This document shows, piece after piece, positions 9,351-30,907 of a stretch of 35,442 nt of DNA. The stretch is from Bacteroidota bacterium. GTDB lineage: Bacteria; Bacteroidota; Bacteroidia; JABDFU01. A program made the translations under genes and the position numbers. Location of the stretch: assembly GCA_013286805.1 (NCBI GenBank), contig JABDEY010000016.1:1-35442 (forward strand), read 5' to 3'. The notes under the pieces were generated by a model. The model did no database searches, had not been told where the DNA came from, and saw only the letters and a list, made by a program, of their open reading frames with translations. How positions within the stretch are numbered: position 1 is the first letter of the stretch; every line of letters begins with the position of its first letter.

Positions 9351-9869
9351 CTACATTTCCAACACAGATTTGTGGAAAATACCCAAATAAATAAGCAGCC
9401 CAATCAGTGCAATCGCAAGACCAGCCAATACCTGCATTTTCATTTTGTAATCCTCCTTATCTCTTTTTAGTTCCTGAATATGCATCACATTTCGAATGGC
9501 GTTTTGTACCCGAAGAAACATTTTGTCATTCTTAATGATATAGTCGAATGCTCCATGTTTCATTATATCAACAGCCACCTCAATATGATCCTGTGCGGAG
9601 AATAGAATAACATACGTATCCGGATTTGTTTTTTTTACCTGATTCAGCACTTTTATGCCATCCATTGCATTGGGATAATTGGCATTCAGGAGATAATCCA
9701 GGAGAATGATATCCGGTTTCCTGTCAAGTTGACTCAAGCACTCCTCTCCGCTGGTGAAAGTTGTTACTGTATACCCATGAAAAAACTGCCGGACATAGAG
9801 CTCTATCGTTTTTAGAAATGAATTATCATCGTCAACCAGAAAGATCAGAGGATTGGCTTTTTTTCGCAT
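9351..9869 (-). CDS. receiver protein with C-terminal membrane anchor (tail-anchored REC)
   Basis: The protein has 172 residues. The receiver domain (about 1-128) has D13/D14/D15 in 'LVDDD', phospho-acceptor D58 in 'LLDYLL', and K113 in 'YIIKND', where KP would be usual. Between D58 and the conserved G71 there are 12 residues instead of about 7, a lengthened beta3-alpha3 loop ('LLNANYPNAMDG'). A basic helix leads into one hydrophobic helix at about 146-164, then a short tail, so the receiver should face the cytoplasm, tethered to the inner membrane. Paralogs lie at 21588 and 22095. It is divergent from the kinase at 10083. Confidence 0.9.
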   Translation of the reverse strand: MRKKANPLIFLVDDDNSFLKTIELYVRQFFHGYTVTTFTSGEECLSQLDRKPDIILLDYLLNANYPNAMDGIKVLNQVKKTNPDTYVILFSAQDHIEVAVDIMKHGAFDYIIKNDKMFLRVQNAIRNVMHIQELKRDKEDYKMKMQVLAGLAIALIGLLIYLGIFHKSVLEM

Positions 9870-11714: not shown

Positions 11715-11726
11715 AAATAATTACGT

Positions 11727-12419
11727 ATGAAGTGCATCATTGTAGACGACGACGAAATATCCAGATTGGCCCTGACAAAGCTGGTTGAACAGGTAAACTC
11801 CCTTTCGCTTTTACAGGTATGTTCGGGTTCAGTGGAGGCATTGAATTATCTGAATGCCGAAAAAGTTGACCTGATCCTTTTGGATATAGAAATGCCTGAA
11901 ATGAATGGGTTGGAATTTATTAAAAGTATAAAAAATCCTCCGCTCATTATTCTGGCTACGTCCAAGAAGAAATATGCGCTGGAATCCTATGAATACAATG
12001 TGGTTGACTTCATTATCAAACCAGTCAGCATTGACCGGTTTGTTAAATCTATTGCAAAGGCAAAGGCAATATTTGACAGTACCCAGCAGGTTGTCAGCTC
12101 TTCAGGCATCAACTATGTATTTATTAAAAGTCAATCCTCTTTGATAAAGATTAATACGAATGATATATTATGGATTGAAGCACTTGGTGATTATATCACC
12201 ATCAATACTGCTGCCAAAAAGCATATTGTTCATACCACGATGAAAACAGTCGAAGGAAGGCTTCCTTCCGATAAGTTTGTCAGGGTACACCGCTCCTACA
12301 TTGTTTCGGTGGACAGGATCAATTCGATTGAAGACACGATAGTGGCAATAAATGGGAAGTTGATTCCTGTTGGGGCAGTATATAAAGAAAATCTGGTGAA
12401 ACTCTTAAACCTTCTTTAA
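11727..12419 (+). CDS. LytTR-family response regulator
   Basis: The protein has 230 residues. A receiver (about 1-120) with D7/D8 in 'IIVDDDE', D53 in 'LLDIEMPEMNG' and 'IIKPV' is followed by a LytTR DNA-binding domain (about 128-230; 'ILWIEALGDYITI', 'FVRVHRSYIVSVDRI'). It is one of only two clear DNA-binding regulators in the window. It lies 12 nt after a kinase, so activation by that kinase is likely. LytTR proteins typically bind pairs of short direct repeats about two turns apart; candidate repeats lie at 12423-12509 and 24451-24544. Confidence 0.94.
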   Translation: MKCIIVDDDEISRLALTKLVEQVNSLSLLQVCSGSVEALNYLNAEKVDLILLDIEMPEMNGLEFIKSIKNPPLIILATSKKKYALESYEYNVVDFIIKPVSIDRFVKSIAKAKAIFDSTQQVVSSSGINYVFIKSQSSLIKINTNDILWIEALGDYITINTAAKKHIVHTTMKTVEGRLPSDKFVRVHRSYIVSVDRINSIEDTIVAINGKLIPVGAVYKENLVKLLNLL

Positions 12420-12422
12420 TGA

Positions 12423-12509
12423 TGAATTCACCTCTGAAAATAATGTGTTCACCGAAAACAGAGAACTAGTCAAATCTGCCCGGCGTATATTGGGCGGTTG
12501 AATTCACCT
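12423..12509. repeat. TGAATTCACCT direct repeats between the LytTR and hybrid kinase genes
   Basis: The 11-mer TGAATTCACCT occurs at 12423-12433 and 12499-12509. A third TTCACC is at 12448-12453, 21 bp after the first. They occupy most of the 121-nt gap upstream of the hybrid kinase and could be regulator sites. The spacing between the outer copies is 76 bp. Confidence 0.35.
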
Positions 12510-12540
12510 TCATTGGATAATGTAAATAGAGAGTTCAATT

Positions 12541-15030
12541 TTGATCGAAAAATTTGACATATTGATGATTGAGGATAATCCGGCAGATGCCAGATTAATT
12601 GATATCTATTTGAATGAAGCGTATGGTGATAATTTGTATACGCTTACGACGGCCTATGATTTAAAATTAGGATTGGAATACGCGACGCAGAAATTTTTTG
12701 ACGTAATCCTTGTAGACTTATCATTGCCCGACAGTTTCGGGCTTGATACCTTTAAAAAAGTATTTGAAAAAGCCCCGGATACGCCCATTATTGTCCTCAC
12801 GGGTTTGGATGATGACAATACCGGATTGAATGCCATGAAGCTGGGGGCTCAGGACTTCCTGATTAAAGGAAAAGTCAAAGCGAAAGGGCTGAGGCGTTCC
12901 ATCAATTATGGTATAGAACGCAATAACCTGCATATACAACTTCAGGAAAAAACAAAAAAACTGGAGGAAAAGACGGAAGATCTTAGTAAAGAAAGGCGCA
13001 AACTTTCCGAGGCTCAAAAACTGGCTCACATAGGGAGTTGGGAATGGGATATAAAAACTGAAAAAATTATTTTATCAGATGAACTCTGTGATATATATGG
13101 ATTGACTTCAGGCAGTTTTAATTCGACTTACGAATCATTTTTGGAGCAGGTTCATGAAGAGGACAGGGCCGCTACAAAGAAAATCATTGAAGAGTCCTAT
13201 AAGAAAAAAATTCCTTTTGATTTTTATCACCGGGTTGTACGTCCCAATGGGGACATTCGTACTATTCATGCGATAGGGGAGGTTATTCTGAATGAAAAGG
13301 GAGATCCGGCCATGATGCTTGGTACAGGTCAGGATATAACGGAACGGATAAAAGAAGAAGAGCTGGAGAAACTGGCTACTGCCGCAACCAAATCCTTTAA
13401 TTCAGTAATAATTGCCAATAAGGAGGGAGAAATTGAATGGGTAAATGATGGTTTTACCAGTCTCAGTGGATATACATTAGCGGATATAAGAGGAATTGGG
13501 AAAACGCTCTTTGAAATTGTTACAGAGACCAGATTCCCATCTGGAAAAAAAATCAGCAAATCAGATTTGGATGGAACTCCGATTTCCTATGAAAGAGAAA
13601 ATTGGACAAAAGCCGGGGAAAGATATTTTGCCATTACAACACTTTCTCCTGTTTTAGGAAAGGATGGAAAAATAGAAAGAATCATTGCAATTGATACCGA
13701 TATTACCTTAAGAAAAAAGATGGAAGAAGAACTTTTAAAAGCGAATCGGGCTGCAGAGGATGCGCTTATGAAAGGGAATAAGGCTTTGGATGAACTGATG
13801 CAGGCCAAAAAGGAATTAGAGGAATCCATGAAGGTAAAGGAACAGTTTCTTGCAAATATGAGTCATGAAATCAGGACTCCCATGAATGCAATTATCGGCT
13901 TTACGGATCTTATTTTAAAAACCCAACTGACATCAGATCAAAATCAATATGTTGATGCAATTAAGACTTCAGGCCGGAATCTTATTGTAATAATCAATGA
14001 TATTCTTGATTTTTCTAAAATTCAATCAGGTAAAATAGTGTTTGAACAAATTGAATTTAATTTACATGACCTGGTTGCTACGCATGCCGAATTAATGTTA
14101 TATAAACAGGAACATAAAAAAATCCGACTCTCTTGTTCAATCGGAAAAAATGTGCCCATTCGTTTGATGGGTGATCCAACCCGTTTGAGTCAGATACTCC
14201 TGAATCTCGTCGGGAATGCGGTAAAATTTACTGAAAATGGTGAAATTAAAATAAAGGTTGACCTTGACTGGGACAATACGGATTCAGCGGAATTGAAATT
14301 TTCAATCTCGGATACCGGTATTGGAATTCCCAAAGATAAGCTGGAGTACATTTTTGAAGGTTTTACGCAGGCCAGCAATGAAACGACGAGGAAATATGGA
14401 GGTACAGGGCTCGGGTTAACCATCGTTAAACAATTAATTGAACTGCAGGGAGGCTCCATTCAGGTTGCAAGCACTGTTGGCCTTGGTTCAACATTCACTT
14501 TTAATCTTAAATACAGGAAATGTCAAAATGTAAATGCCCCGAGTCGGATTGCCGCGAATGGAAATGCAACAAAAGAAAAATTGGATACTATTCCTGCAGA
14601 TAAATTGAAAATACTGCTGGTTGAAGACAATGACTTAAATCAGCTTTTAGCACGAAAAGTTATTACAAATTGGAATTGGACCGTTGACGTGGCTGAAAAT
14701 GGGTTAAAGGCAGTTCAAAAAGTAAGAGAAAATAGCTTTGATGTGGTTTTAATGGATATTCAAATGCCCGAGATGGATGGATATGAAGCTACTGGAAAAA
14801 TCAGACGGACACTTCCGGAACCAAAATGCAACGTCCCGATTATTGCGATGACAGCCCATGCTATAACCGGAGAAGAAGAGAAATGTATAAAGGAGGGAAT
14901 GGATGACTATATTTCCAAACCATTTGAAGAAGCGGTACTCTATAAAAAGATACTCTCCGTTTACAGAAAAAGGAATAATCAGCAATTAACCAACATAAAC
15001 ACCTCGGAAAATGGTAACGACAAACAGTAA
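12541..15030 (+). CDS. soluble hybrid histidine kinase (REC-PAS-PAS-HisKA-HATPase-REC)
   Basis: The protein has 829 residues and no membrane segment. The N-terminal receiver has D59 ('VDLSLPDS') and 'LIKGK'. After a coiled coil come PAS1 (about 155-270, 'IGSWEWDIKTEKI') and PAS2 (about 280-400), a second coiled coil, then HisKA with H442 in 'MSHEIRTPMN'. HATPase has 'NLVGNAVKFT', 'DTGIGI' and 'GTGLGLTIVKQL'. The C-terminal receiver has D739 ('LMDIQMPEMDG') and 'ISKPF'. The start is TTG 12541; no ATG precedes the receiver. The double receiver suggests input from another kinase and output to the HPt, whose gene overlaps by 20 nt. Confidence 0.94.
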   Translation: MIEKFDILMIEDNPADARLIDIYLNEAYGDNLYTLTTAYDLKLGLEYATQKFFDVILVDLSLPDSFGLDTFKKVFEKAPDTPIIVLTGLDDDNTGLNAMKLGAQDFLIKGKVKAKGLRRSINYGIERNNLHIQLQEKTKKLEEKTEDLSKERRKLSEAQKLAHIGSWEWDIKTEKIILSDELCDIYGLTSGSFNSTYESFLEQVHEEDRAATKKIIEESYKKKIPFDFYHRVVRPNGDIRTIHAIGEVILNEKGDPAMMLGTGQDITERIKEEELEKLATAATKSFNSVIIANKEGEIEWVNDGFTSLSGYTLADIRGIGKTLFEIVTETRFPSGKKISKSDLDGTPISYERENWTKAGERYFAITTLSPVLGKDGKIERIIAIDTDITLRKKMEEELLKANRAAEDALMKGNKALDELMQAKKELEESMKVKEQFLANMSHEIRTPMNAIIGFTDLILKTQLTSDQNQYVDAIKTSGRNLIVIINDILDFSKIQSGKIVFEQIEFNLHDLVATHAELMLYKQEHKKIRLSCSIGKNVPIRLMGDPTRLSQILLNLVGNAVKFTENGEIKIKVDLDWDNTDSAELKFSISDTGIGIPKDKLEYIFEGFTQASNETTRKYGGTGLGLTIVKQLIELQGGSIQVASTVGLGSTFTFNLKYRKCQNVNAPSRIAANGNATKEKLDTIPADKLKILLVEDNDLNQLLARKVITNWNWTVDVAENGLKAVQKVRENSFDVVLMDIQMPEMDGYEATGKIRRTLPEPKCNVPIIAMTAHAITGEEEKCIKEGMDDYISKPFEEAVLYKKILSVYRKRNNQQLTNINTSENGNDKQ

Positions 15031-15376
15031 AGTGACAAACCTTGCTTATCTGAAGGAATTAGCAAAAGGAGACATGAATTTTATAAATGATATGGTTACT
15101 CTTTTCCTGGAACAAACTCCCGATGCAATCAGTAAACTTGAAAAAAGCTGTTCTGAAAAGGACTGGAAAACACTCCGGTTTGTGGCACATAAAATGAAGC
15201 CCTCATTTAGCTTTGTAGGATTAAACGAATTGTCGGATAAGGTCAATTCAGTTGAAGAGTATTCCGAAAACGAAATTCATCTCAACCGGTTGCCGGAAAT
15301 GATCGCTGACATTAAATCGGTCTGTTCAAAAGCAATCGAAGAGCTTACTGAACAGAAAAAAGAATTTCAGGTTTAA
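15011..15376 (+). CDS. stand-alone HPt phosphotransfer protein
   Basis: The 121-residue helical protein has the HPt signature 'VAHKMKPSFSFVG' with the phosphorylatable H60 and the preceding helix 'FLEQTPDAISKLEKS'. It overlaps the end of the hybrid kinase by 20 nt, so it is probably translationally coupled and takes phosphate from that kinase's C-terminal receiver (D739). It is paralogous to the HPt at 22985. It ends 4 nt before the convergent kinase gene. Confidence 0.93.
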   Translation: MVTTNSKVTNLAYLKELAKGDMNFINDMVTLFLEQTPDAISKLEKSCSEKDWKTLRFVAHKMKPSFSFVGLNELSDKVNSVEEYSENEIHLNRLPEMIADIKSVCSKAIEELTEQKKEFQV

Positions 15377-15380
15377 ACTG

Positions 15381-17651
15381 CTAATCTTTTTTATTCCCCG
15401 TTGCTGCTATCGTGAAATAGAAAGTGCTTCCCTTTCCGAATTCCGATTCAACCCATATTTTTCCACCATGACGATCCACAATTTTTTTACAAATTGCCAA
15501 TCCTATACCGGTGCCGGGATATTTTTCCTTGGTATGTAAACGCTGAAATATAACAAATATCTTATCTGAATATTCCTTCTGGATTCCAATTCCATTGTCT
15601 TTTATTGAAAACAGGAATTCATTGTTGACTTTTTTACCGGATATATGGATTTCAGGTTTTTTTTCTCCTTTAAATTTTATGGCATTTGCAATCAGGTTTT
15701 GAAACAATTGCCCTATTAAAACAAGATCTCCGTGTATTTGGGGCAATGCGTCGCACTTAATAATGGCATTATTTTCTTTAATTGAGCTCTCCAGATTTTT
15801 TAAAATGTCTTTCAATTCCACATTTAAATCGATCCATTCAAATGGTTTAATTCTGTTAACGCGGGAGTATTGCAAAAGATCCATTATAAGTGTTCTCATT
15901 CTATTGCTTCCATCAACAGCAAAAGCAATAAAATCATTGGCATCCTGATCTAATTTGTCTTTGTACCGGTTCGATAAAAGTTGCACATAACTTGTTACCA
16001 TACGCAGAGGTTCCTGCAAATCATGTGAAGCCACGTAGGCAAACTGTTCCAATTCAGAGTTGGAGCGTGCAAGTTCCAGGCTTTTTTGGGTAAGCTCCAG
16101 TTCTGCTTTTTTGCGTTCGGAGATATCCCGCGAAATGGTGGAAAAATGCTCTACCTCTCCGGTAGCCGATTTGTGTGATTGCAGAATCATGGATACAGGA
16201 ATTTCCTTTTTATCTTTTACATTAAGAAAAGCAGCTTCGCCGCTCCAGATTCCGTTTTGTATTGCATAGGGAAGGATTTCATCACGAAATAGTTTATTAG
16301 TCCAATCAGGATGAACATCATCAATAATATATTTTGAAACTTCTTCGTCCTTTCCGATTCCACACATCTTCCTCCCGGCGGGATTTATGAAGACGATTTG
16401 TTTGTCCCGCGCCCTTGCAAATCCAATGAAATCGCTGGATGATTCAATTATAGCCACAAGCCGCTTTTGAGCATCTTCTGCCTTTTTCCTTTCGGTGATA
16501 TCCCGTATGGCAGCTGATACGATAAGTCCGTCCTGTGTTTTCAGCGGGCTTAAACTTATTTCGATGGGAAACTCCTCACCACCCTTTTTCTTCCCGAATA
16601 ACTCCAACCCTGCGCCCATCTCTCTGGCTTTGGGATTTGTAAAGTAATCTTCGAGATGATGTGGGTGATTTCCGGAGAACCGTTGAGGAATTAATACCTC
16701 CACTTTTTGACCGATTAGTTCTTCTTTTTCATAGGCAAAAAGTTTTTCGGTCTGCCTGTTAATTAATTTTATCACCCCCTCCTCATTTACAATCACCATT
16801 GCGTCCGGGGCAGATTCAAGTAACCCCCTGAACTGCTCTTCGCTTTCCTCTAACTGTTTGGCATATGAATCAAGATTCCTGTTGCTGGACTCCAGTTCAC
16901 TGGTGCGCTCTTTAACCTTTTGTTCAAGGTTTTTATTAAATTCACTCAAAGCCTGATTTTGCCTTTGAATTTGAATAAGCATTTGATTGAAAGCATCTGT
17001 AAGGGATCCCAGTTCATCATTGCCGATTTTAATAGCACGGACTGAGTAGTCTCCTTTAGTTGAAATTAGTTGAGCGGTCTGTGCTAAATCAAGGATGGGT
17101 TTTGAAATACTTTTTTGGAAGATTCTGGAAAGGAATAAAGCCAGCAGGAGCGAGAAAATGATTACAAGCACCGTTACCATACCATAAATCCGGAATTGCT
17201 CGTACATTGCTCCCAGGTCAGATTTAAGATACAAAGTACCCAGACGTTTATTTCCTTGCAGAATAAACTGAAATCGTTCTATGTACGAATCCGAAAAATG
17301 ATAGCCTTCCGATTCCAGGTTAACCGGGAAAATAGTCATTCCGGGACCATTAGGATAATGAGAAAAAAGCTTCCCTTGTTTATCATAAAGGCAGGCAGCA
17401 ACTATATGTGGTTCAGCCTTTAGCGCAGCCAGAATCTCACTTGCATCTTTCGGATTATCAAAGGCAAGTGCGGCGGTACTATTAGCGGAAATAATTTCTC
17501 CGATCGCAGAAAGCTTCTCTATGGTCCTTTGTTTGAATGAATAGTACTCATAGATAAAAAAAATGGCGCACGTTACAAGCAATACGATCACACTAATGAG
17601 AATGATTACCCTCATTAGCTTTCGTTGTATCGGCATATCTTTTATCTGCAT
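15381..17651 (-). CDS. CHASE8-HAMP-PAS-PAS sensor histidine kinase
   Basis: The protein has 756 residues. TM1 (about 12-34) is followed by a periplasmic CHASE8-like domain ('[19 protein letters not shown]', '[17 protein letters not shown]'), TM2 (about 154-175) and HAMP (about 176-230). Next come a coiled coil, PAS1 (about 275-395, '[15 protein letters not shown]'), PAS2 (about 396-515), HisKA with H543 in '[10 protein letters not shown]', and HATPase ('[10 protein letters not shown]', '[12 protein letters not shown]'). The CHASE8-HAMP front is the type found in YfiN/DgcN diguanylate cyclases, but here it drives a kinase. The YfiR-family gene lies 7 nt upstream in the same operon. It has no receiver of its own. 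Confidence 0.92.
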
Positions 17652-17658
17652 CAGATGG

Positions 17659-18222
17659 TTATTTTTTACCTGGAACGAATAGTTCAGATAGCCTGAGTAG
17701 TTTTGAACTGATGACCAGGTTTGCTTTTTTGCCCGCCTCGGGATTGATTTGAATCAGTATTTTGTTGTTTTTTGTGAAGAACCTGAGAATTCCCCCTGCT
17801 TGTAAAAAACCGGCCATATCACTTACCGTAAGAATAGTTCTTCCTTTTAAACCCGCTACCACTTGTTCCAGCCTGGTTGTCTGTGACAAATTGATAAAAA
17901 GGATATGACAGATTTTGATTTCTTCCAGGTCTCTGAAATACTGTACAACTATTCGGTGTCCATTCACTTTTTCACCGCTCACAAGTTCTTCCAGATAAGA
18001 GCCAAATGGGGTATCTCCTAAAATTCCAATAATAAACGGATCTTTATCTGTCGAAAAACTGGTTGCAGGCCATTCAACAAACTGAGTGAAGTTGAAAAGA
18101 AAAGCTGCTTTTATCTGATATTCGCGCGGAGCCGGCGTTTGCGCGGATAATAAAGCTAAACTGCATAGTAGTGCCAGTAAAACTGACAAATAGCGTTGTC
18201 GTATATTTTTAATAGTTAGCAT
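17659..18222 (-). CDS. YfiR-family periplasmic protein (DUF4154)
   Basis: The protein has 187 residues with a signal peptide ('[14 protein letters not shown]') and the family's '[18 protein letters not shown]' opening. '[10 protein letters not shown]' and '[20 protein letters not shown]' follow, ending '[12 protein letters not shown]'. YfiR of Pseudomonas is a periplasmic repressor of the CHASE8-type cyclase YfiN. By analogy this protein should contact the CHASE8 domain of the adjacent kinase. Its gene is 14 nt after the TonB-dependent receptor and 7 nt before the kinase. The functional link is inference from family and context. Confidence 0.9.
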
Positions 18223-18236
18223 ATCAATCTTCCATC

Positions 18237-20159
18237 TTAAAATCGATACGTAATTTTTCCATAAACACTGCGGTGAATAGGGTAATTGCCAGTTTCAAAA
18301 TGTTGGGCAGAAAGAAGGTTTTGACCGATAACAGAAAATTCCAAATGTGTGAAACGTTTTGCTAAACGGGCATTAAGTGTAAAGTAAGTCGGAGAGGAAG
18401 AAACAGGTGCAATTGCATTAAGTTCTCCCACATAACGTCCCATCAGATCCAACGAAAAATTCTTTGACAAATCCATTATGGATTGAAGCATAAATTGATT
18501 TTCGGGGTCAACACCTTCGAAACTTGGACTTATAGGTAAAACGGAAGGGATGGTGGCCCAGATGTTTTTTCTTAAAAAGGTATAACCACCACGTAATCGC
18601 CACCAATTAGTCGCCTGATAATTTCCGGAAAATTCAAATCCCCAGGATTCCGCATCTTGCCCGTTTTCGATTAGTGTGGGAGTTATTTTGCTTGTGTCTG
18701 AGTTAAGGCTTCGAAGGTCAAAGTATTGATTAAAAAAGGCAGAAAAGGAAAAGGACAGATTTTCCATTAGTCTTAAACGGTAACCCAGTTCATACGCATT
18801 CACTTTTTCCGAAACAAATCCATACGGTGATAAGCTTTGCCCGGTGGGCTCGATAAGATCTTCATCAAAGCGGCTGGGTGTGCGTACAGCACGGGAAATG
18901 GAGGCCCAAAGGGTATGACCCTTTTTCGGAGTTAAAGCCAGGCGTGCACTTGGTTGAACCTCATAGCCTGTGAACACATCGTGCAGGAGCTTGCTGCCAA
19001 TAGTCAGTTTCAAAAGGGCAGGAACAAAGGTTATTTCATCCTGAATAAACCCGCTCGCTTCTGGCATGGGAAGGTTTTCCGGATTTAATGCCTGAATGTT
19101 CGTCATGTCTTGTACATAGCTGTATCCTGCTCCCATCAAAATACTTTGGCGCTGTCCAATGGGAAGACGATATTGAATATCAATATCATTTGTACTTACA
19201 TTATAATTGGAAGGTTTGGCTGCATTAGCGACATCCCTGGTAGTGTAATCGGAATAAACCTTAACAGTCAGGTTCGATTGATCCGAAAAATGATGTGTAA
19301 AATGCGCCATTATATTTTGACCGGTTGTATGAGTAAGATTGCTCAGGTCATTTTCGCTGCCGGAATAGATATCACCCTGCAAATTAAATGTATTGGCTTT
19401 GGATGGATAATAATCCATGCGAAAACCACCTTGTGCCATGTTATACCGATTTACGGTATCGCCTGGACTTGACCTTTCCTGGTCAAAATACTGCCCGTAA
19501 ATTCGAAAATAAAGGTTATCGCTAATCTTTCCTCCGTAGCGCATTTCGGTAATATCCTGAAGAGCCGAGGTCATACCAGCCTCCTGAGATACACACAAGC
19601 CCTGAGTCTCCCTGGCGCTTTTGGTTTGGATGTTGATTACCCCATTTACAGCATTTGCCCCCCAGAGTGTTCCTCCCGGACCGCTCACTACCTCCACACG
19701 ATCTAAATCCTCCAGCATTAAATTTTGTACATCCCAGAATACCCCGCCAAAAAGTGGTGAGTAGATAGACCTGCCATCAATCATCACAAGGAGTTTATTG
19801 GATAACTCACCTCCTGACGATGGTAAGCCACTAAATCCCCTCGCAGTAATTGAAAAACTATGAGAATTTGCCTGTGCTATTTGCAGATTAGGCGCTAATT
19901 CCAAAGCTTGCGGGAGACTTAAAGCAGAGGACCTCTGGATGTCCTCATTTGCAATAACCTGTATGGCGGAGGCGACTTCTGTCAATTTCTCAGGTTGCAT
20001 GGATAAAGATGTCACTTCAATATTCATAAGCTCTTCCAGGCTTAGCTTTTTTAATTTAGAGGAAGGCAGAAGGCTGTCCCCTGCCTGGGCGAAGATCAAT
20101 GTAGATAGTAGCGTCAGAATTATCGTTGATGGTCCATAAAATAAAAGCCGGTAACGCAT
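18237..20159 (-). CDS. TonB-dependent outer-membrane receptor
   Basis: From ATG 20159 the product is 640 residues, beginning with a signal peptide ('STIILTLLSTLIFAQAG'). An in-frame ATG at 20195 would overlap the upstream gene. A plug domain follows ('EVASAIQVIANEDIQRSSA', 'GPGGTLWGANAVNGVINIQT'), then a 22-strand-type barrel ending in a C-terminal Phe ('GKITYRF'). It lacks the N-terminal CarboxypepD_reg-like domain of SusC proteins, and no SusD gene is present. A YfiR-type gene and a CHASE8 kinase follow, so it may be the outer-membrane input of a signalling chain rather than only an importer. The ligand is unknown. It starts 2 nt after the receiver gene. Confidence 0.92.
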   Translation of the reverse strand: MRYRLLFYGPSTIILTLLSTLIFAQAGDSLLPSSKLKKLSLEELMNIEVTSLSMQPEKLTEVASAIQVIANEDIQRSSALSLPQALELAPNLQIAQANSHSFSITARGFSGLPSSGGELSNKLLVMIDGRSIYSPLFGGVFWDVQNLMLEDLDRVEVVSGPGGTLWGANAVNGVINIQTKSARETQGLCVSQEAGMTSALQDITEMRYGGKISDNLYFRIYGQYFDQERSSPGDTVNRYNMAQGGFRMDYYPSKANTFNLQGDIYSGSENDLSNLTHTTGQNIMAHFTHHFSDQSNLTVKVYSDYTTRDVANAAKPSNYNVSTNDIDIQYRLPIGQRQSILMGAGYSYVQDMTNIQALNPENLPMPEASGFIQDEITFVPALLKLTIGSKLLHDVFTGYEVQPSARLALTPKKGHTLWASISRAVRTPSRFDEDLIEPTGQSLSPYGFVSEKVNAYELGYRLRLMENLSFSFSAFFNQYFDLRSLNSDTSKITPTLIENGQDAESWGFEFSGNYQATNWWRLRGGYTFLRKNIWATIPSVLPISPSFEGVDPENQFMLQSIMDLSKNFSLDLMGRYVGELNAIAPVSSSPTYFTLNARLAKRFTHLEFSVIGQNLLSAQHFETGNYPIHRSVYGKITYRF

Positions 20160-20161
20160 AC

Positions 20162-20608
20162 TTATCGGTTGGGCAATTTTACAATGGTAAGCCAAAAGTT
20201 TTCGATGGATTGTATTACCTTAATAAACTGATCAAAATTGACCGGCTTTGTAATATAACAATTGGCATGATTCGCATATACATTTAAAACATCCAGTTCG
20301 GCGTCAGAAGTAGTGAGTACAATAACCGGTATAAGCATAAGCATGGGATTTGCCTTGATTTCAGCAAGAACCTCACGTCCATCTTTTTTGGGTAAATTAA
20401 GGTCAAGTAAAATAAGATCAGGGGTAACAGCATCCTTGTGCTGACCTTCTTTTTTCAGAAAAAACAACGCCTCTTCACCATCAGTAACGACACTCAATTG
20501 ATTTGTTATTTTTCCATCCTTCAGAACTTCCCTTGTAAGCCTTATATCGCCTGGATTATCTTCAATTAACAGGATTTGCATTGCTTGTAAATTTCTTTTG
20601 TCATTCAT
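20162..20608 (-). CDS. single-domain response regulator, Rcp1-like
   Basis: The receiver has 148 residues with 'LLIEDNPGD' (E16/D17), phospho-acceptor D69 in '[11 protein letters not shown]', 'VLTTSD' and '[10 protein letters not shown]'. ATG 20608 is chosen because AAGGA lies seven bases upstream; an in-frame ATG at 20632 and one at 20581 are alternatives. It resembles the Rcp1-type receivers paired with phytochrome-like kinases. It lies 2 nt before the TonB receptor gene, so it is probably the partner of the CHASE8 kinase in the same operon. It has no output domain. Confidence 0.9.
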
Positions 20609-20750
20609 GTGGGAATCCTTTTTACACGGCAATAATAAATTTATAGCGAGTTTACGTTTTAGGCACCTTTCTTCATACTAATTTCGATGGACTGTAATTA
20701 ATACAAGACAAACATTATCTTTTGTTGGTTATCCTGTTTTTGAAGAACTG

Positions 20751-21113
20751 TTATGCCAGTTCCTTAATTTGCCTGATACGTTTAACAAGATTTTTAAAAT
20801 TTAAAGGTTTAAACAGATAGTCCGCAGCCCCCATTTTTTTGGCAGATAATACGAGCTCAGTTGTTTTAAGTGATGAAATGATAATGATTGGGATCGTATT
20901 TAAATAAAAGTTCTTTAACAGGCTAAGTAGTTCCAGTCCGGAGAAGCCTGGCATTAAGATATCACACAGAATTAAGTCGGGTCTTTCAACCTCGATAGCC
21001 TCAAGTGCCTGTATGCTGTTTTGCACTGAAATAACCTCCCATTGATTTGCTTTTAAACAATGCCTGATTGCTTTAAGAATCAGCTCGTCGTCATCAATTA
21101 CCAGGATTTTCAT
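20751..21113 (-). CDS. single-domain response regulator (receiver only)
   Basis: The receiver has 120 residues from ATG 21113; a longer start at 21149, abutting the preceding stop, would add 12 unlikely residues. Features are 'ILVIDDDELIL' (D7-D9), D51 in 'LCDILMPGFSG', 'IIISSLKT' and 'YLFKPLNFKNL'. Unlike its upstream neighbour it has the normal-length beta3-alpha3 loop. The 142-nt gap before the next receiver gene may hold a second promoter. Confidence 0.9.
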   Translation of the reverse strand: MKILVIDDDELILKAIRHCLKANQWEVISVQNSIQALEAIEVERPDLILCDILMPGFSGLELLSLLKNFYLNTIPIIIISSLKTTELVLSAKKMGAADYLFKPLNFKNLVKRIRQIKELA

Positions 21114-21149
21114 AACTGTTTGGTTTAAGTTTAAATGCTCAACCCCCAT

Positions 21150-21557
21150 TCAATACTCTATTGCATCGTCAAATATCCCTTCCATTAGTTTTTTAATGGC
21201 GGGCAGAGCACTTTCGTTTTTTATTATGTATTCAGTTGCTCCTTCTCTCATGCAGTTAAGAGCAACTTCCATATCGTGCTGGGAAGAAATAATGATGACA
21301 TTTAATGAAGGGTCAGCTTCACGCAATTTTTTCAACATTTGAAGGCCATTCCATGCGAATTCAAACTCTGAATTCAAATAATAATCGAGGATAATGGCAA
21401 CAGGATTCAAATACAGAGAATGTAAACACGCCTCCCCGGTTGTGAAGGTTTTTAGTTGCAGGTCTGGAATTTCTTTTAAAAGATAGGCACTTACTGCTTT
21501 TGCATAGAGCGTGTCATCGTCTACGATAAACACGAGTTTGTTTTCTGAGGCTTCCAT
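21150..21557 (-). CDS. receiver protein of the long-loop family, no membrane anchor
   Basis: The receiver has 135 residues with 'FIVDDDTL' (D13-D15), D58 in 'IILDYY', then the same lengthened loop as the tail-anchored receivers ('LNSEFEFAWNG') and K113 in 'YIIKNES'. It ends after the final receiver helix without the basic linker and hydrophobic helix of its three paralogs. It is thus a soluble member of that family. It lies 30 nt after the tail-anchored paralog at 21588 and may compete or exchange with it. Confidence 0.9.
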   Translation of the reverse strand: MEASENKLVFIVDDDTLYAKAVSAYLLKEIPDLQLKTFTTGEACLHSLYLNPVAIILDYYLNSEFEFAWNGLQMLKKLREADPSLNVIIISSQHDMEVALNCMREGATEYIIKNESALPAIKKLMEGIFDDAIEY

Positions 21558-21587
21558 TTGCTTTCCCTTTTAATGAAATGTTCAATG

Positions 21588-22088
21588 TTAAAACACTCTT
21601 TTAATAAAAAGAATTAACAGGATCAATGCAAAACAGGCAATGAATAGTTTTGCGATCAAGATAGCAGCAGTGTGACGCCGTGTGGTTTTAATCGAATGGA
21701 TCGCATTTTTTATAATTTCATGAATTTCAATTGGGGTAGTATTGTTTTTTATAACATAACTGAAGCCTCCGGATTTCATTGTTTCAAATGCCACATCCAC
21801 TTTTTCATGACCCGAGAGCATAATGACTTCCGTTTCGGGGGCTTCCCGTTTTATTTTTTGCAATACCTGCAAGCCGTTCATTGCATCAGGATCATGGCTG
21901 TTTAGCAAATAATCAAGCACAACAATATTCGGTTTTTGGTGAAGGTTATGGAGGCACTCTTCGCCTGTTTGGAATGATTTAATTTTTATGTTGTACTTCA
22001 ACCTGTGTTGCAATTGATATTCCAGCGATTTCAGAAATAACGTATCATCGTCCACTAAAAAAATCGACAGATCTTTAATTGTTTCCAT
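21588..22088 (-). CDS. receiver protein with C-terminal membrane anchor (tail-anchored REC)
   Basis: The protein has 166 residues. The receiver has 'FLVDDDTLFLK' (D13-D15), D59 in 'VVLDYLL', the long loop 'LNSHDPDAMNG', 'MLSGHEKV' and K114 in 'YVIKNN'. A basic linker ('IKTTRRH') leads to one strongly hydrophobic helix at about 141-162 and the tail 'KRVF'. This predicts a cytoplasmic receiver held at the inner membrane by its C-terminus. It lies 6 nt after the paralog at 22095. Confidence 0.9.
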   Translation of the reverse strand: METIKDLSIFLVDDDTLFLKSLEYQLQHRLKYNIKIKSFQTGEECLHNLHQKPNIVVLDYLLNSHDPDAMNGLQVLQKIKREAPETEVIMLSGHEKVDVAFETMKSGGFSYVIKNNTTPIEIHEIIKNAIHSIKTTRRHTAAILIAKLFIACFALILLILFIKRVF

Positions 22089-22094
22089 GACACA

Positions 22095-22598
22095 TCAATG
22101 GTTTAAGTAATATAACGCGGTTACGGCAGTATATATGAGGAGGAATAAAGCCATTAAATAATTCCATGCCTCATATTGTTTGGTTTCACGCGAATACTCA
22201 ATGACATCCATACTGTTTTTTAAAACATTTTGTAAACGGATGAATGCAGTTTCACTTTTAGCAACATACTCGATTGCTCCGTATTTAATGGCACTCGCTG
22301 CTACCTCCAGTTTGTCCTGAGCGGAAAGCATAACGACCTGAATGCTGTTGGAAATCGATTTTATTTTCTTTAATACTTCCATACCATTCAAAGCACCGGG
22401 AATCCCGGCCGTCAGGTAATAATCAAGTATCACTATGTCCGGCTTTTCCCCTAAATGACTCAGACAATCCTCCCCGTTTATGAATGTGGATAGGGTTATA
22501 TTCTTAAACCTTCTTTTTAGCTCATTTTTTAATGAGAGCAGGAACATTCTATCGTCGTCTACTAAGAAAACGGATAGACTTTTGTTTGTCGTTTCCAT
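22095..22598 (-). CDS. receiver protein with C-terminal membrane anchor (tail-anchored REC)
   Basis: From ATG 22598 the product is 167 residues; paralogs begin with the same MET/MEA-type start, which favours this over ATG 22625. The receiver has 'FLVDDDRMFLL' (D14-D16), D59 in 'VILDYYL', the long loop 'LTAGIPGALNG', 'MLSAQDKLEV' and K114 in 'YVAKSE'. A linker with 'EYSRETKQYE' precedes one hydrophobic helix at about 146-164. It is the first gene of a minus-strand run of receivers that leads into the TonB receptor/YfiR/kinase genes. Confidence 0.9.
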   Translation of the reverse strand: METTNKSLSVFLVDDDRMFLLSLKNELKRRFKNITLSTFINGEDCLSHLGEKPDIVILDYYLTAGIPGALNGMEVLKKIKSISNSIQVVMLSAQDKLEVAASAIKYGAIEYVAKSETAFIRLQNVLKNSMDVIEYSRETKQYEAWNYLMALFLLIYTAVTALYYLNH

Positions 22599-22984
22599 GG
22601 CTTTCGTTTTTATTAAGTCAGACATACACGTAATTTATTTGATGCTTACTTCTACTATGTTAAACGTATATTTAAAAATATAGTTGTACCCTTTCGGTAG
22701 CACTATCCCTTTAATCGCCGAACAGGATGGAACAAGTGGTGAACGCCTGGAATTTGCTCTTCCTGAATGGTTGGAATTAGCTTTTCGGTGGATTTTGGTA
22801 CAAGGCTTCTACTTGTAATGATAAAGAGGATATTGATCTAAAGCAACCATCAAACTTTCAGTAAACGCTTGGCTGCTAATTAAACAGGTTCAACCGCAAT
22901 TAGAACCAGTTTATCGAATAAAGAAACATTTTGGATTGTTTATTCGTTAAATCCGTACTTCTTACCCAAAAAAGATAACAGAAT
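22599..22984. other. 386-nt divergent intergenic region
   Basis: It lies between the minus-strand receiver cluster and the plus-strand HPt gene. I see no convincing coding frame. A 19-bp inverted repeat is at 22799-22817. Promoters for both directions must lie here, but no box is clear enough to call. Confidence 0.4.
22799..22817. promoter_or_regulatory. inverted repeat, possible operator
   Basis: TACAAG and CTTGTA flank a 7-bp centre (6-bp perfect arms), midway between the divergent receiver and HPt genes. It has the size of a dimer-binding site; no regulator is assigned. Confidence 0.3.
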
Positions 22985-23347
22985 ATGGTAAATGAAAAAA
23001 ATGAAAGGATAACCGATTTAAGCTATTTGGAACAGCTTTCAAATGGTGATAAAGGTTTTGTAAAAGAAATGATAGAGGTGTTTATAGTTCAAACTCCGGA
23101 AGGATTGGATAATCTCGAAAGGCATTTGTCCAACAAGGATTGGAAAATGGTTCGAGCAGTTGCACACAAAATGAAACCTTCTTTCACCTTTGTAGGAGTG
23201 AAGGAATTAACGGGAGTTATGGGTTTGATTGAGGAATATGCAGAAAGCCAGACCCATCTTGAGTTGATACCTGATTTGCTGGTAAAAGTGAAAAGTAGTT
23301 GTGCAAAAGCGATGATAGAATTGGAAGCGGCAAAAAATTTCTTTTAG
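22985..23347 (+). CDS. stand-alone HPt phosphotransfer protein
   Basis: The protein has 120 residues with 'VAHKMKPSFTFVG' and the phosphorylatable H61, preceded by 'FIVQTPEGLDNLERHLSN'. It is closely similar to the HPt at 15011 along its whole length, so the two are paralogs. Unlike that one, it is not attached to a kinase gene; the nearest hybrid kinase is the poly-HAMP protein 1.2 kb downstream, and a receiver cluster lies divergently upstream. A free HPt in this position could link the poly-HAMP kinase to the tail-anchored receivers, which is inference. Confidence 0.92.
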   Translation: MVNEKNERITDLSYLEQLSNGDKGFVKEMIEVFIVQTPEGLDNLERHLSNKDWKMVRAVAHKMKPSFTFVGVKELTGVMGLIEEYAESQTHLELIPDLLVKVKSSCAKAMIELEAAKNFF

Positions 23348-24586: not shown

Positions 24587-27500
24587 ATGGAAACCACCTT
24601 ATCAAAAGAAACCCAGAAAAAGCATAGCGGAGAACAAAAGAAAATGGATCTGGATCTGGTAGATAACAGATTATTGTTCGAGGTATTAAACGAAGTGAAA
24701 AATGGAAATTTTTCTGTTCGGATGCCCATTGATCAGGTAGGACTTGCCGGTAAGATATGTGACACCCTGAATGATATTATCGAAATAAATGAGAAAATGA
24801 TGCTGGAATTTACCAAGGCCGGCAGCACAATTGGCAAGCAGGGAAAACTGACAGAACGTTTGGAGATTCCAAATGCAAGAGGAGCCTGGAGAAGCGGTGT
24901 AGATTCTTTAAATACCTTGATCTCCGACTTGGTACATCCCACCATTGAAATTGCGAATGTAATCAGCTCCGTGGCGAAAGGGAACTTATCCGAACAAATG
25001 CCCTTGGAGTTAGGGGGGCAGATGCTTCAGGGTGAATTTTTGAGAATCGCACGGGAGGTGAACGATATGGTGAAACAATTGAATTTGTTTTCAATGGAAG
25101 TAACCAGAGTGGCAAGGGAAGTTGGTTCTGAAGGAAAATTGGGAGGTCAGGCAAAAGTCAAGGAAGTATCAGGAGTCTGGAAGGATTTGACAGATTCGGT
25201 AAACCTGATGGGAAGTAACCTGACTGCACAGGTACGTAATATAGCTGAAGTGACGACGGCTGTTGCAAAAGGTGATTTGTCGAAAAAAATTACGGTCGAC
25301 GTAAAAGGGGAAATCCTCGAGCTGAAGAATACGATAAACACCATGGTGGACCAGTTGAATTCATTCTCTTCGGAAGTAACACGTGTGGCCCTGGAAGTTG
25401 GAACAGAGGGTAAACTGGGAGGACAGGCTCAGGTAAAAGGCGTTGCAGGTACCTGGAAGGATTTAACAGATTCTGTGAACCAGATGGCGAGTAACCTTAC
25501 TGGACAGGTGCGAAATATAGCGGAAGTAACCACGGCAGTTGCAAAGGGCGATTTGTCAAAGAAAATCACAGTGGATGTAAAGGGAGAAATTCTTGAATTA
25601 AAAGATACGATCAATACGATGGTGGATCAGCTGAATTCATTTGGTTCAGAAGTTACCCGTGTTGCATTGGAGGTCGGTACAGAAGGGAAATTGGGAGGAC
25701 AGGCTCAGGTAAAAGGCGTTGCCGGTACATGGAAAGATTTGACAGACTCCGTTAACCAGATGGCGAGCAATCTCACAGGTCAGGTTAGGAATATTGCAGA
25801 GGTAACTACCGCTGTGGCAAACGGAGATTTGTCAAGAAAAATTACGGTGGACGTAAAAGGAGAAATTCTCGAATTGAAAAACACCATTAATACAATGGTG
25901 GATCAGTTGAACTCCTTTGGTTCAGAAGTGACGCGTGTTGCAAGGGAAGTTGGTTCAGAAGGAAAACTGGGAGGACAGGCAACAGTGAAAGGCGTAGGAG
26001 GTGTATGGAAAGATTTGACCGATTCAGTAAACCAGATGGCGAGTAACCTGACAGCTCAGGTTCGTAATATTGCAGAAGTAACTACTGCTGTCGCCAATGG
26101 TGACTTGTCGAAAAAAATTACGGTTGACGTCCAGGGCGAAATTCTGGAGCTTAAAAAAACAATTAATACACTGGTTGACCAGCTGAACTCCTTTTCATCT
26201 GAAGTAACCCGGGTGGCATTGGAGGTTGGAACAGAAGGTAAATTGGGAGGTCAGGCAAAAGTAAAAGGAGTAGGTGGAGCCTGGAAAGATTTAACAGATT
26301 CTGTTAATCAAATGGCCAGTAACCTGACTTCTCAGGTCCGGAATATTGCCGAAGTAACAACAGCGGTGGCAAAGGGTGACTTATCACGCAAAATAACAGT
26401 TGACGTTAAAGGGGAAATTCTCGAATTAAAGGATACCATTAACACGATGGTTGACCAGCTGAACTCATTTGGTTCTGAAGTAACACGTGTGGCACGTGAG
26501 GTAGGTTCCGAAGGTAAGCTAGGTGGCCAGGCTCAGGTAAAAGGGGTTGCAGGTACCTGGAAGGATTTAACGGATTCGGTAAACCAGATGGCCGGGAACC
26601 TGACAGCACAGGTGCGAAATGTAGCAGAGGTGACAACAGCGGTTGCAAGAGGAGACTTATCTCGCAAAATTACGGTGGACGTTAAAGGAGAAATTCTTGA
26701 ATTAAAAAACACCATCAATACGATGGTGGATCAATTAAACTCATTTGGTTCAGAAGTAACCCGTGTGGCGCGTGAAGTAGGCTCAGAAGGTCAGTTAGGC
26801 GGGCAGGCGGATGTGCCAGGCGTTGGAGGGACCTGGAAGGACTTGACAGAATCGGTAAACAAAATGGCCAGTAACCTTACCGGGCAGGTGCGGAATATAG
26901 CCGAGGTAACTACTTCCGTTGCGAACGGTGACTTATCCCGTAAAATTGAAGTGGACGTCAAAGGCGAAATTCTTGAACTAAAAAACACCATTAACACAAT
27001 GGTTGACCAGCTTCGGGGATTTGTATCGGAAGTAACACGTGTAGCACGGGAGGTTGGAACGGAAGGAAAACTGGGAGGGCAGGCCAATGTGCCTGGTGTT
27101 GCAGGAACCTGGAAAGATTTGACTGACTCTGTTAACCAAATGGCAAGTAACCTCACCTCTCAGGTACGGAATATTGCAGACGTGGCCATAGCTGTTGCAA
27201 ATGGCGACATGTCAAAAAAAATAACGGTGGATGTACGTGGAGAAATTCTGCAGTTAAAGGAAACACTCAATACCATGGTGGATCAGCTTCGTGCATTTGC
27301 CTCCGAAGTAACACGCGTGGCACGTGAAGTAGGTACGGATGGGAAATTAGGAGGACAGGCATTTGTGCCTGGGGTAGCTGGAACCTGGAAAGATTTGACA
27401 GACTCCGTTAACCAGATGACGGGTAACCTGACTTCTCAGGTGCGTAATATTGCGGAAGTGACTAAGGCAGTAGCGGGTGGTGATTTATCCAAGAAGGTTA

Positions 27501-30500
27501 CAATTGACGTTAAAGGTGAAATTCTTGATCTGAAGAATACCATCAATACAATGGTCGATCAGCTTAACTCATTTGCTTCTGAGGTAACACGTGTTGCAAG
27601 AGAAGTGGGTACAGAAGGTATTCTTGGAGGCCAATCAGAAGTCCGTGGTGTGGCAGGAACCTGGAAAGATCTTACGGATTCGGTAAACATGATGGCCTCC
27701 AACCTTACCAGTCAGGTACGGGGAATCGCAAAAGTGGTTACATCCGTTGCAACAGGAAACTTAAAGCAAAAATTATCCATCAATGCGAAAGGAGAGGTAG
27801 CTCAGTTAACAGAAACAATCAATGAAATGATTGATACACTTGCGCTCTTTGCTGATCAGGTAACAACCGTGGCTCGTGAAGTGGGCGTCGATGGAAAATT
27901 AGGAGGTCAGGCCAATGTTCCCGGCACTTCCGGTATATGGAAAAACCTGACAGAAAACGTAAATCAGTTAGCAGAAAACCTGACAACACAGGTAAGAGCT
28001 ATTTCTGAAGTAGCCTCTGCGGTTACAAAAGGCGACTTGACACGCTCTATCAGCGTGGATGCAAAAGGAGAAGTGGAAGCATTAAAAGATACCATCAATC
28101 AGATGATATCCAATTTAAAACAAACTACCCTGCGCAATCAGGAACAGGATTGGTTAAAATCGAACCTCGCCAAATTTACCCAGATGCTTCAGGGACAAAA
28201 AGATTTGAACACCGTTACCAAGCGTATTCTTTCAGAGCTTGCCCAGGTGGTTTCCATTAATTTCGGTGCATTCTATATTTTCCAGGACGATTCAAAATTA
28301 AAATTATTCACCTCCTACGCCTTCAAAGGAGAAAATTCTATTTCTTCGGAGTTTGCATTAGGGGAAGGATTAATTGGTCAGTGTGCACTGGAGAAGGAAC
28401 GAATCCTGATTACAGCCCCATCCGATTATGTGAAAATCAGCTCAAGTCTGGGAGAGTCCAAACCAACTAACCTGATTGTTCTGCCCGTTCTTTTTGAAAC
28501 AAAAGTAAAGGCAGTCATTGAACTGGCTTCTTTCGGTCAATTCAGTGAAACTCATCTGGACTTTCTGGAACAGCTGACTGAAAGTATCGGTATTGTATTG
28601 AACACCGTTGAAACAAATACCAAAACACAGGAACTTCTGGCGCAATCACAATCATTGGCAGGTGAACTAAAAACCCAGCAGGGAGAATTAAGAAGAACCA
28701 ATGAAGAACTGGAAGACAAGGCACTATTGCTTGTAAAACAAAAGGACGAGTTGGAACAAAAGAACAAAGAAATTGAAGATGCCAGTAAATCGTTGGAAGA
28801 AAAGGCCGAACAACTTACCCTTACTTCAAAATACAAATCTGAGTTTCTGGCAAATATGTCACATGAGCTCAGAACCCCCCTTAATAGTTTATTAATTCTG
28901 GCTCAGCAATTGTTTGAAAACCATGAAGGGAATCTTACTGAAAAACAGATTGGTTTTGCAAAAACAATTCACTCCTGTGGAGATGACCTAATTCAGCTGA
29001 TTAATGATATTCTGGACCTGTCGAAAATCGAATCCGGATTTATTTCAACAGATTTTGTTCCGATCCGTTTTACAGAAATATCATCCTTTGTAGAGTCCAC
29101 ATTCAAGCACATTTCAGAATCCAAAAACCTGAAATTCGTTATTGAAGTACAAAAAAATCTGCCTGAAAAAATAGAAACGGATTTACAGCGATTAAATCAG
29201 GTTTTAAAAAATCTGTTATCTAATGCCTTTAAATTCACTGAAAAGGGAGAGGTAAAGTTGAGTATTTACAAAGCTCAGAAAAACTGGAAAACAAAAAATG
29301 TAAACCTCGATTCAGCAAAAACAGTCATTGCCTTTGCTATCAGTGATACCGGTATTGGAATCTCCAAGGATAAGCAAAACATTATTTTCGAAGCATTTCA
29401 GCAGGCCGAAGGATCAACAAGCCGCAAATATGGAGGAACAGGTCTGGGTTTATCGATCAGCAGGGGATTGGCCGACTTGTTAGGTGGTTCTATAGAATTG
29501 GAAAGTCAGCTGGAGCAGGGAAGTGTATTCACATTGTTTTTACCGCTTGACTACGTTCCCGCAAAAAACAAGATGGAAGGAGTACAAGGGCAATTACAAA
29601 ACCTGAAAGAGCTGGAATCTTCAACTATTTCTAACGTCACTGTTACGGCGAAAGGTGAAATAAAGGATTTGAATTTTATCAATGAAATGATCAACGAAAC
29701 AGGAGATGACCGCAGCAATATTCTTGCGAATGACAGGGTGCTTTTAGTTGTAGAAGATGATTTAAGATTTGGGAAAATCATGATTGAGAAAGCGCATCAG
29801 TCAGGATTGAAGGTAATAATGGCAATCAATTATGGAGAAGTATTTGAATTTGCCATCAAATATAAACCTGTCGCCGTTACATTGGACATTAAACTACCCG
29901 ATGCCAGTGGCTGGAAAATACTTGACCTGTTCAAAAGTGATCTTAACCTCCGGCATATACCCATCCACCTCATCTCAGGTGAGGAAAACAGGTCATTGGC
30001 AATCAAAAGGGGAGCAAAAGGTTTTCTTTTAAAGCCTCTTAAAACGAAGACACTGAACAACCTGTTTACCGGAATTATAAAGTTCAATTCAAAAAAGATG
30101 AAGAATCTTTTACTGGTAGAAGATAATCCAATGGATTCTTCCAATATTATTAAGATGCTGGAACATGAAGCAATTAAAATAACACTTTCACGTACTGGGA
30201 GTGCCGCGATGAAACAATTGAGGAGTAAACAGTTCGACTGTGTGATTTTGGATTATACATTACCGGATACTACGGCAATGGAATTATTAAGGATGATAGA
30301 TCAAAAGCATTCAGAGGAAATAACACCTGTAATTGTATATTCTGCAAAAGAATTTACCGCAAAAGAAGCTACACAGTTAAAGCAGCTTGCAAACAGTATC
30401 ATGCTTAAGGATGTGAATTCCCTGGAACGCCTGCTGGAAGAAACGGTTATGCATTTGCACTTAGAACACAAAGCCCTTCAACCGGCCAAGCGTAAGATCA

Positions 30501-30907
30501 TTGAAAATATCAGGATTCAAGAGGATGTTCTGGCAGGCAAAAATGTTCTCATTGTTGACGATGACGTAAGAAACCTTTTTGCTTTAACTACGGCTTTTGA
30601 ACGGTACAAAATGAATGTCCTGACTGCAGAAAGTGGCAAGGAAGCAATTCATCTGCTGGATGAACATGAAACTGTGGATATTGTTCTGATGGATATCATG
30701 ATGCCCGAAATGGACGGTTATGAAACCACCCAGAAAATCCGCCGGGAGACTAAAAACAGTGGACTTCCTATAATCGCTGTCACCGCAAAGGCTATGAAAG
30801 GTGACAGACAAAAATGTATTGACGCCGGTGCTTCCGATTATATAACCAAGCCGGTAAAGGTAGATCAGTTATTATCGCTTATGCGTTTATGGTTATACAG
30901 AAAATAG
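24587..30907 (+). CDS. giant soluble poly-HAMP hybrid histidine kinase (HAMP array-GAF-HisKA-HATPase-REC-REC-REC)
   Basis: The protein has 2106 residues and no signal or membrane helix. Two divergent HAMP-like units (to about residue 170) precede eleven near-identical 92-residue units (about 171-1174). Each pairs a canonical HAMP ('[18 protein letters not shown]') with a divergent one ('[12 protein letters not shown]...GTWKDL'). Then come GAF (about 1185-1345), a coiled coil, HisKA with H1426 in '[10 protein letters not shown]', HATPase ('[10 protein letters not shown]', 'DTGIGI', 'GTGLGLSI') and receivers with D1767, D1889 and D2036. The layout recalls fungal group III (Nik1-type) kinases, where HAMP repeats sense osmotic or cell-wall stress. 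Two signalling genes follow in the same operon. Confidence 0.95.
25097..28110 (+). repeat. coding tandem repeat, 276-bp unit, about eleven copies
   Basis: The 92-codon HAMP-pair unit of the giant kinase recurs with an exact 276-bp period (for example the QVRNIAEV codons near 25229, 25505 and 25781). Inner copies share long identical stretches of protein and much of the DNA, while the first and the last two are more divergent. This is the pattern of unequal exchange or gene conversion inside the array. Copy number may vary among strains and be mis-assembled from short reads. Confidence 0.85.

Follow-up and report, generated by a model that had tools for sequence, protein, structure and literature searches.

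A family of predicted tail-anchored receiver proteins in Bacteroidia, often encoded beside Hpt phosphotransfer genes

Introduction

Stand-alone receivers are usually pictured as diffusing freely; CheY and Spo0F, for example, consist of a (beta-alpha)5 receiver with no output domain. Receiver-only proteins also act in phosphorelays, and those described include the alphaproteobacterial FATGUY Rec-only proteins SdrG, Sma0114 and MrrA together with CpdR, which have DHp or Hpt partners (PMC9981736). Intermediary receivers have been suggested not to use allosteric control of the alpha4-beta5-alpha5 face, and the cis Lys-Pro bond has been called a hallmark of the receiver (PMC9981736). Membrane attachment has been described for archaeal receiver (REC) proteins with a MetOD3 output (PMC5847659). 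Here we analyzed a stretch of 35,442 nucleotides (the window) from the 56% complete genome of a Bacteroidota bacterium (JABDFU01; assembly GCA_013286805.1, contig JABDEY010000016.1), in which a reading made from the sequence alone had pointed to four related receivers, three of them ending in a membrane anchor. These three proteins belong to a family whose genes are often linked to genes for histidine phosphotransfer (Hpt) proteins.

Results

Four long-loop receivers, three with a C-terminal anchor

The four proteins are given below; hydropathy is that of the best 19-residue segment downstream of the receiver domain.

22095..22625, minus strand: tail-anchored receiver 1; Pfam Response_reg 7.7e-16; hydropathy 1.84; AlphaFold pLDDT 94.4, helix 118-166 of 167
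21588..22088, minus strand: tail-anchored receiver 2, 166 residues; Pfam Response_reg 1e-17; hydropathy 3.04; AlphaFold pLDDT 95.2, helix 118-165 of 166
21150..21557, minus strand: soluble long-loop receiver of the same family, no anchor, 135 residues; Pfam Response_reg 6.8e-14
9351..9869, minus strand: tail-anchored receiver 3, 172 residues; Pfam Response_reg 3.5e-18; hydropathy 2.67

All four scored above the Pfam cut-off for Response_reg (PF00072), the only domain that Pfam detected in these proteins of 135-176 residues; no AAA+ or HTH output domain was found. The 22095..22625 protein has 176 residues when read from 22625 and 167 if translation starts at the internal ATG at 22598, a possible start that accounts for the end coordinate of 22598 in the sequence-only reading. 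Alignment of the four proteins revealed 27 invariant columns, including LDYxL, the acceptor Asp, the later Gly and the conserved Lys, and bore out the features by which they had been grouped. The Asp-to-Gly spacing across the beta3-alpha3 loop is 13 in all four compared with 8 in ordinary receivers such as that at 20751-21149, a loop longer by five residues, and the Lys is followed by S in the 22095 protein and by N in the 21588, 9351 and 21150 proteins, in place of the usual P. The LDYxL motif reads LDYYL, holding the acceptor Asp, in the 22095 protein and LDYLL in the 21588 protein. The 21150 protein is soluble, as had been proposed: it stops 11 residues into alpha5, with no hydrophobic segment after the receiver. 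A basic linker leading to a single hydrophobic helix had been claimed for the other three; the helix is present in each, and the linker is clearly basic in the 21588 and 9351 proteins and roughly neutral in the 22095 protein.

AlphaFold models of the 21588 and 22095 proteins revealed an ordinary receiver fold with the long loop placed confidently and the hydrophobic stretch lying beyond the fold. In both, alpha5 runs as one helix of 48-49 residues through the anchor to the C-terminus, and by sequence about half of this helix is stalk and about half anchor. Among 60 anchored homologues the 15 residues preceding the anchor carry a mean net charge of +2.3, the tail beyond it has a median of five residues, and 50 of the 60 have 30-36 residues between the Lys and the anchor core. 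Retention of the anchor by 62 relatives at so constrained a distance is far beyond chance. The layout is that of a tail-anchored protein with a predicted cytoplasmic receiver, having a single hydrophobic helix at the C-terminal end, a short tail and no signal peptide, with the N-terminus running straight into beta1.

Distribution and phylogeny of the family

Relatives were collected by scanning contigs and by searching 60 related genomes, which with the window's own make up a sample of 61 Bacteroidia genomes. When the loci were read, 62 distinct anchored members and 90 soluble ones were identified, all in one clade. Anchored members were present in 24 of the 61 genomes, representing 20 family-level groups; some of these genomes carried several copies. 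Their length was stable at about 160-190 residues across many lineages. Stand-alone, C-terminally anchored receivers with no output domain are thus a real family, spread across Bacteroidia, and not truncated pieces of a longer one. Close relatives were rarer in a wider draw of 296 genomes of the phylum, most of them from other lineages: when about 12 candidates per genome were scored, 13 genomes held one at E < 1e-36.

A FastTree phylogeny of the receiver domains only placed all 62 anchored members in one clade of 167 sequences (support 0.964) together with the 90 soluble members and 13 sigma54 regulators; this is a quick tree in which receivers from outside the family are undersampled, since all were recruited by similarity to it. 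The anchored state changed at least 19 times on the tree, compared with about 55 times when the labels were shuffled, so the anchor is a trait that has been gained or lost repeatedly within one receiver group. The long loop and the anchor had been put forward as a single trait, and this did not hold: the loop was long (spacing 13) in 38 of 62 anchored members and of ordinary length (8-9) in 22, and it was long in 68 of 90 soluble members.

The residues of the receiver active site, the acidic pair among them, were well conserved. Anchored members kept the acceptor Asp, the Lys, the Ser/Thr and the switch aromatic (Tyr/Phe) in 61 of 62 cases each. Pro followed the Lys in none of the 62, compared with 46 of 67 receivers outside the clade; within the clade, sigma54 receivers included, this residue is mostly N or D. 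The Cys of a GE.CL motif was present in 51 of 62 anchored and 82 of 90 soluble members, and the position is mostly Ala outside the clade; this Cys (in FxxGEECL) is residue 45 of the 21588 protein.

NtrC-type regulators were the closest characterized proteins. Thirteen of 18 sampled sigma54 receivers fell in the family's clade (support 0.964, FastTree only), and Aquifex NtrC1 (PDB 1zy2, 1ny5, 4l4u) was the best PDB match to the family by both sequence and fold. NtrC1 receivers also extend alpha5 into a long linker helix, which leads to the ATPase. In contrast, the anchored proteins have neither the ATPase nor the DNA-binding domain of NtrC-type regulators, and the helix that continues from their alpha5 is predicted to pass into the membrane; the clade's sigma54 members also had the normal loop (13 of 13), unlike the long-loop receivers of the window. 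CheY and Spo0F matched in fold but differ from the family in having a shorter loop, a KP and no C-terminal anchor. The FATGUY proteins and CpdR are likewise receiver-only, but the anchored family belongs to another phylum, keeps the switch aromatic, has no Lys-Pro and carries a membrane anchor. Membership of the FATGUY group was rejected: the FATG motif at beta4 was found in 0 of 62 anchored members, which typically read MLSG. The archaeal REC-MetOD3 proteins are also described as a membrane-anchored receiver family (PMC5847659), which we liken to this one by description only. We found no bacterial tail-anchored receiver family and no linkage of one to Hpt described in the open-access literature, where the remark on MetOD3 came closest; this is weak evidence of absence.

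Genomic linkage to Hpt

Hpt domains were few, with 1-8 per genome and 58 in 19 genomes. In 14 of the genomes, a total of 18 of these domains had a family receiver on the same strand within 200 bases, compared with 0.05 expected by random placement, and the Hpt gene was upstream in 16 of 17 close pairs. Signalling genes cluster, and as a control the next gene 3' of each Hpt gene was read from the fetched surroundings. Twenty of the 26 receiver genes found directly 3' of Hpt belonged to the family (10 anchored, 7 soluble, 3 sigma54), the remainder being 4 LytTR and 2 others, whereas the family's share of all receivers in those genomes is about 13% (about 92 of 711; binomial p about 2e-13, or about 8e-8 with the share doubled to allow for hybrid-kinase receivers). 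The 19 genomes were picked for holding the family, so that the share of Hpt genes with a family partner is conditional on that choice; the comparison of family with other receivers within the same genomes is free of it. That the strongest association is with a receiver 3' of Hpt points to the end-point of a relay. The full order of hybrid histidine kinase, Hpt and anchored receiver, with gaps of at most 77 bases, was found at six loci (L168, L170, L181, L183, L195, L198).

A kinase or Hpt gene was present near 28 of 60 anchored and 23 of 76 soluble genes at the fetched loci, a contrast that is not clean because soluble members often lie in the same clusters. The pairing with a CHASE8 kinase seen in the window recurred at L022, L032/L150 and L129, which suggests that one type of signal is relevant in some lineages; the sensors of most linked kinases are of other kinds. 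At three loci (L177, L194, L213) an Hpt-bearing protein was followed directly by a sigma54 (NtrC-type) regulator with a family-like receiver, and NtrC-type regulators of Bacteroidota are possibly fed by Hpt. At two further loci from two families (L127:7565-9086 and L158:6982-8538) the anchored receiver gene was preceded by a YceI-like gene together with a small conserved one, possibly forming a stress-response locus.

Gene neighbourhood in the window

The three receiver genes of the run 22625-21150 are separated by gaps of 6 and 30 bases. The run continues with an ordinary receiver (0 bases), a further stand-alone receiver (118 bases), a TonB-type protein, a YfiR-like protein and a CHASE8-HAMP-PAS histidine kinase. 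These genes, and the relay genes on the other strand, are as follows.

20751..21149, minus strand: ordinary receiver in the same run, 132 residues, DILMPGFSG, KP (Pfam)
20162..20632, minus strand: stand-alone receiver next in the run, ordinary spacing (DLNLPKKDG), Pfam Response_reg; read by us as Rcp1-like
18237..20195, minus strand: TonB-dependent-receptor-like outer-membrane protein; Pfam Plug; NCBIfam NF053590 at 621.7 bits, below the cut-off of 645
17659..18222, minus strand: YfiR-like periplasmic protein; Pfam DUF4154; NCBIfam NF053591 at 153.6 bits (cut-off 125)
15381..17651, minus strand: CHASE8-HAMP-PAS histidine kinase, end of the run (Pfam); NCBIfam NF053592 HK_near_YfiR_like at 236.5 bits (cut-off 194)
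22985..23347, plus strand: stand-alone Hpt, divergent from the receiver run; Pfam Hpt (PF01627) 7.8e-9
12541..15030, plus strand: hybrid histidine kinase, REC-PAS-HK-REC (Pfam), with PAS domains, HisKA, HATPase_c and Response_reg in two stretches
15011..15376, plus strand: stand-alone Hpt overlapping the 3' end of the hybrid kinase gene; Pfam Hpt (PF01627) 1.6e-9

The Hpt protein at 22985 is a candidate phosphodonor for the receivers, and that at 15011 a candidate second one. The 9351 gene is divergent from a run of histidine kinase, LytTR, hybrid histidine kinase and Hpt genes (10083-15376), and on the same-genus contig L017 (G004:C20) an anchored receiver is likewise divergent from a histidine kinase-LytTR pair; this contig also has a counterpart of the ordinary receiver 20751..21149 at the same place. 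Located 3' of the Hpt gene at 22985, positions 24587-30907 encode a hybrid kinase of 2106 residues in which about a dozen HAMP-type units accompany GAF, HisKA and HATPase domains and three receivers, and a multi-HAMP gene lies near a hybrid kinase and Hpt on L017 too.

The trio NF053590-NF053592 is already named in NCBIfam as a neighbourhood set, and what the present analysis adds is that in the window, L022 and L129 it is linked to anchored receivers. The Pseudomonas YfiBNR system also combines a YfiR-like protein with a CHASE8 sensor; in contrast, the CHASE8 protein at 15381-17651 has HisKA and HATPase_c and no GGDEF, and is a kinase and not a diguanylate cyclase. The trio at 15381-20195 resembles the YfiR-CHASE8 sensing logic wired to a kinase. 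Elsewhere in the window, 4572-5441 encodes a lipoprotein-like protein assigned to the Cbp1 family in NCBIfam (NF052320; 166 bits, cut-off 90), which has a homologue near the L018 anchored receiver.

Discussion

The analysis revealed an intact receiver, a membrane-compatible C-terminal helix continuous with alpha5, a conserved stalk length and a strong gene linkage to Hpt. The explanation we lean towards, with modest confidence, is that multi-step phosphorelays run by hybrid kinases and Hpt proteins end at the three anchored proteins, which would be tail-anchored receivers, probably related to those of NtrC type and with a membrane helix in place of the ATPase output; conservation of the phosphorylation and Tyr-Thr coupling residues, together with the Hpt linkage, makes this the best reading. 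In this scheme a hybrid histidine kinase would phosphorylate Hpt, which in turn would phosphorylate the acceptor Asp of a receiver tethered to the inner side of the cytoplasmic membrane. Alpha5, stalk and anchor would act as one helix carrying the change of the alpha4-beta5-alpha5 face, and since this helix is continuous, such a change could reach the anchor and a membrane partner. Through the changed face, the receiver might dimerise differently or its anchor helices might pack differently, with an effect on that partner, and the soluble long-loop paralogue at 21150 may be a free version served by the same relay as donor. Phosphotransfer from Hpt, location at the membrane, dimerisation and the nature of the partner are what we infer here.

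Several observations weigh against this reading. For 32 of 60 anchored genes, the three closest co-directional genes to each side included no histidine kinase or Hpt gene, and beside the orphan anchored genes that were checked there was no recurrent output partner, the neighbours being mostly housekeeping genes. A conserved partner of the orphans was also sought by comparing 86 unannotated neighbours all-against-all, and was rejected as the comparison gave pairs only, for example the YceI-like and small proteins of L127 and L158. In the window the Hpt genes are nearby yet outside the receivers' operon, and the anchor calls come from hydropathy and AlphaFold predictions. A receiver with no output partner could equally be a sink, in line with the suggestion of the sequence-only reading that these proteins hold phosphate at the membrane. 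Anchored receivers with no partner of their own would then drain phosphate from Hpt or the hybrid kinase as a buffer at the membrane, which we consider unlikely though deserving of weight; we give the same standing to the corollary that soluble regulators (LytTR, sigma54 or the soluble paralogue) fire only above a threshold. The missing output domain and output neighbour fit such draining, as do the several anchored copies in a genome and the presence of an anchored receiver beside the transcriptional regulator in relays that encode one (LytTR at L141, L145, L155 and L162). However, a sink requires no allosteric output, and the switch aromatic and Ser/Thr are conserved nonetheless; the conserved stalk length and the continuity of alpha5 also suggest more than a tether.

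Several kinases and two Hpt proteins belong to the one cluster in the window, and stand-alone receivers elsewhere (MrrA, SdrG) serve as intermediary hubs (PMC9981736). By analogy with the alphaproteobacterial Rec-only hubs, the anchored receivers might relay phosphate between kinases and Hpt and link the membrane kinases of the cluster. This is improbable given that the FATGUY-type motif is lacking from all 62 anchored members, that Hpt is nearly always upstream of the receiver, and that the Tyr-Thr pair is kept whereas intermediary receivers are apparently independent of allostery through the alpha4-beta5-alpha5 face (PMC9981736). For the phosphorylated form, helix-borne output, phosphate sink and hub are ranked in that order. 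The sequence-only reading had suggested that the receivers gate neighbouring membrane kinases, and binding through the anchor, switching a kinase on or off, would suit those in the window, L022 and L032/L150, which have CHASE8-type membrane kinases as neighbours. The adjacent kinases vary widely in sensor type, half of the anchored genes are orphans, and across genomes the association tracks Hpt, the strongest link being with Hpt genes and the hybrid kinases feeding them; we accordingly rate gating as more improbable still, and the idea is refined here and not shown. The placement of sigma54 regulators in the same clade and the nearness of the NtrC1 structures might also suggest functionless NtrC-type regulators, degenerate or truncated. 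We rejected truncation or pseudogenes, leaving this the most remote of the explanations, on the stable length in many lineages and the conservation of active site, anchor and stalk length.

Beyond the end-point assignment, we tentatively raise a new kind of two-component output, a claim we think possible and would not press. Phosphorylation would be passed on mechanically along alpha5, stalk and transmembrane segment as one unbroken helix, reaching a partner in the membrane or the periplasm from the inside out and in the reverse direction to a sensor kinase, with the group that has no Lys-Pro specialised as the Bacteroidota partner of Hpt.

The tail-anchored receiver family and its Hpt linkage appear to be new; receiver-only relay proteins and one membrane-anchored archaeal output domain were already known. 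The family is widespread in Bacteroidota and apparently undescribed, and its anchored receivers are probably membrane-bound end-points of Hpt relays. It also offers a test of receiver function where the Lys-Pro bond called a hallmark of the fold is missing. Its sequence signature and gene order provide a handle for assigning orphan hybrid kinases and Hpt proteins. If across the class the switch helix ties this family to the membrane and gene order ties it to Hpt, that would explain where many Bacteroidota phosphorelays end.
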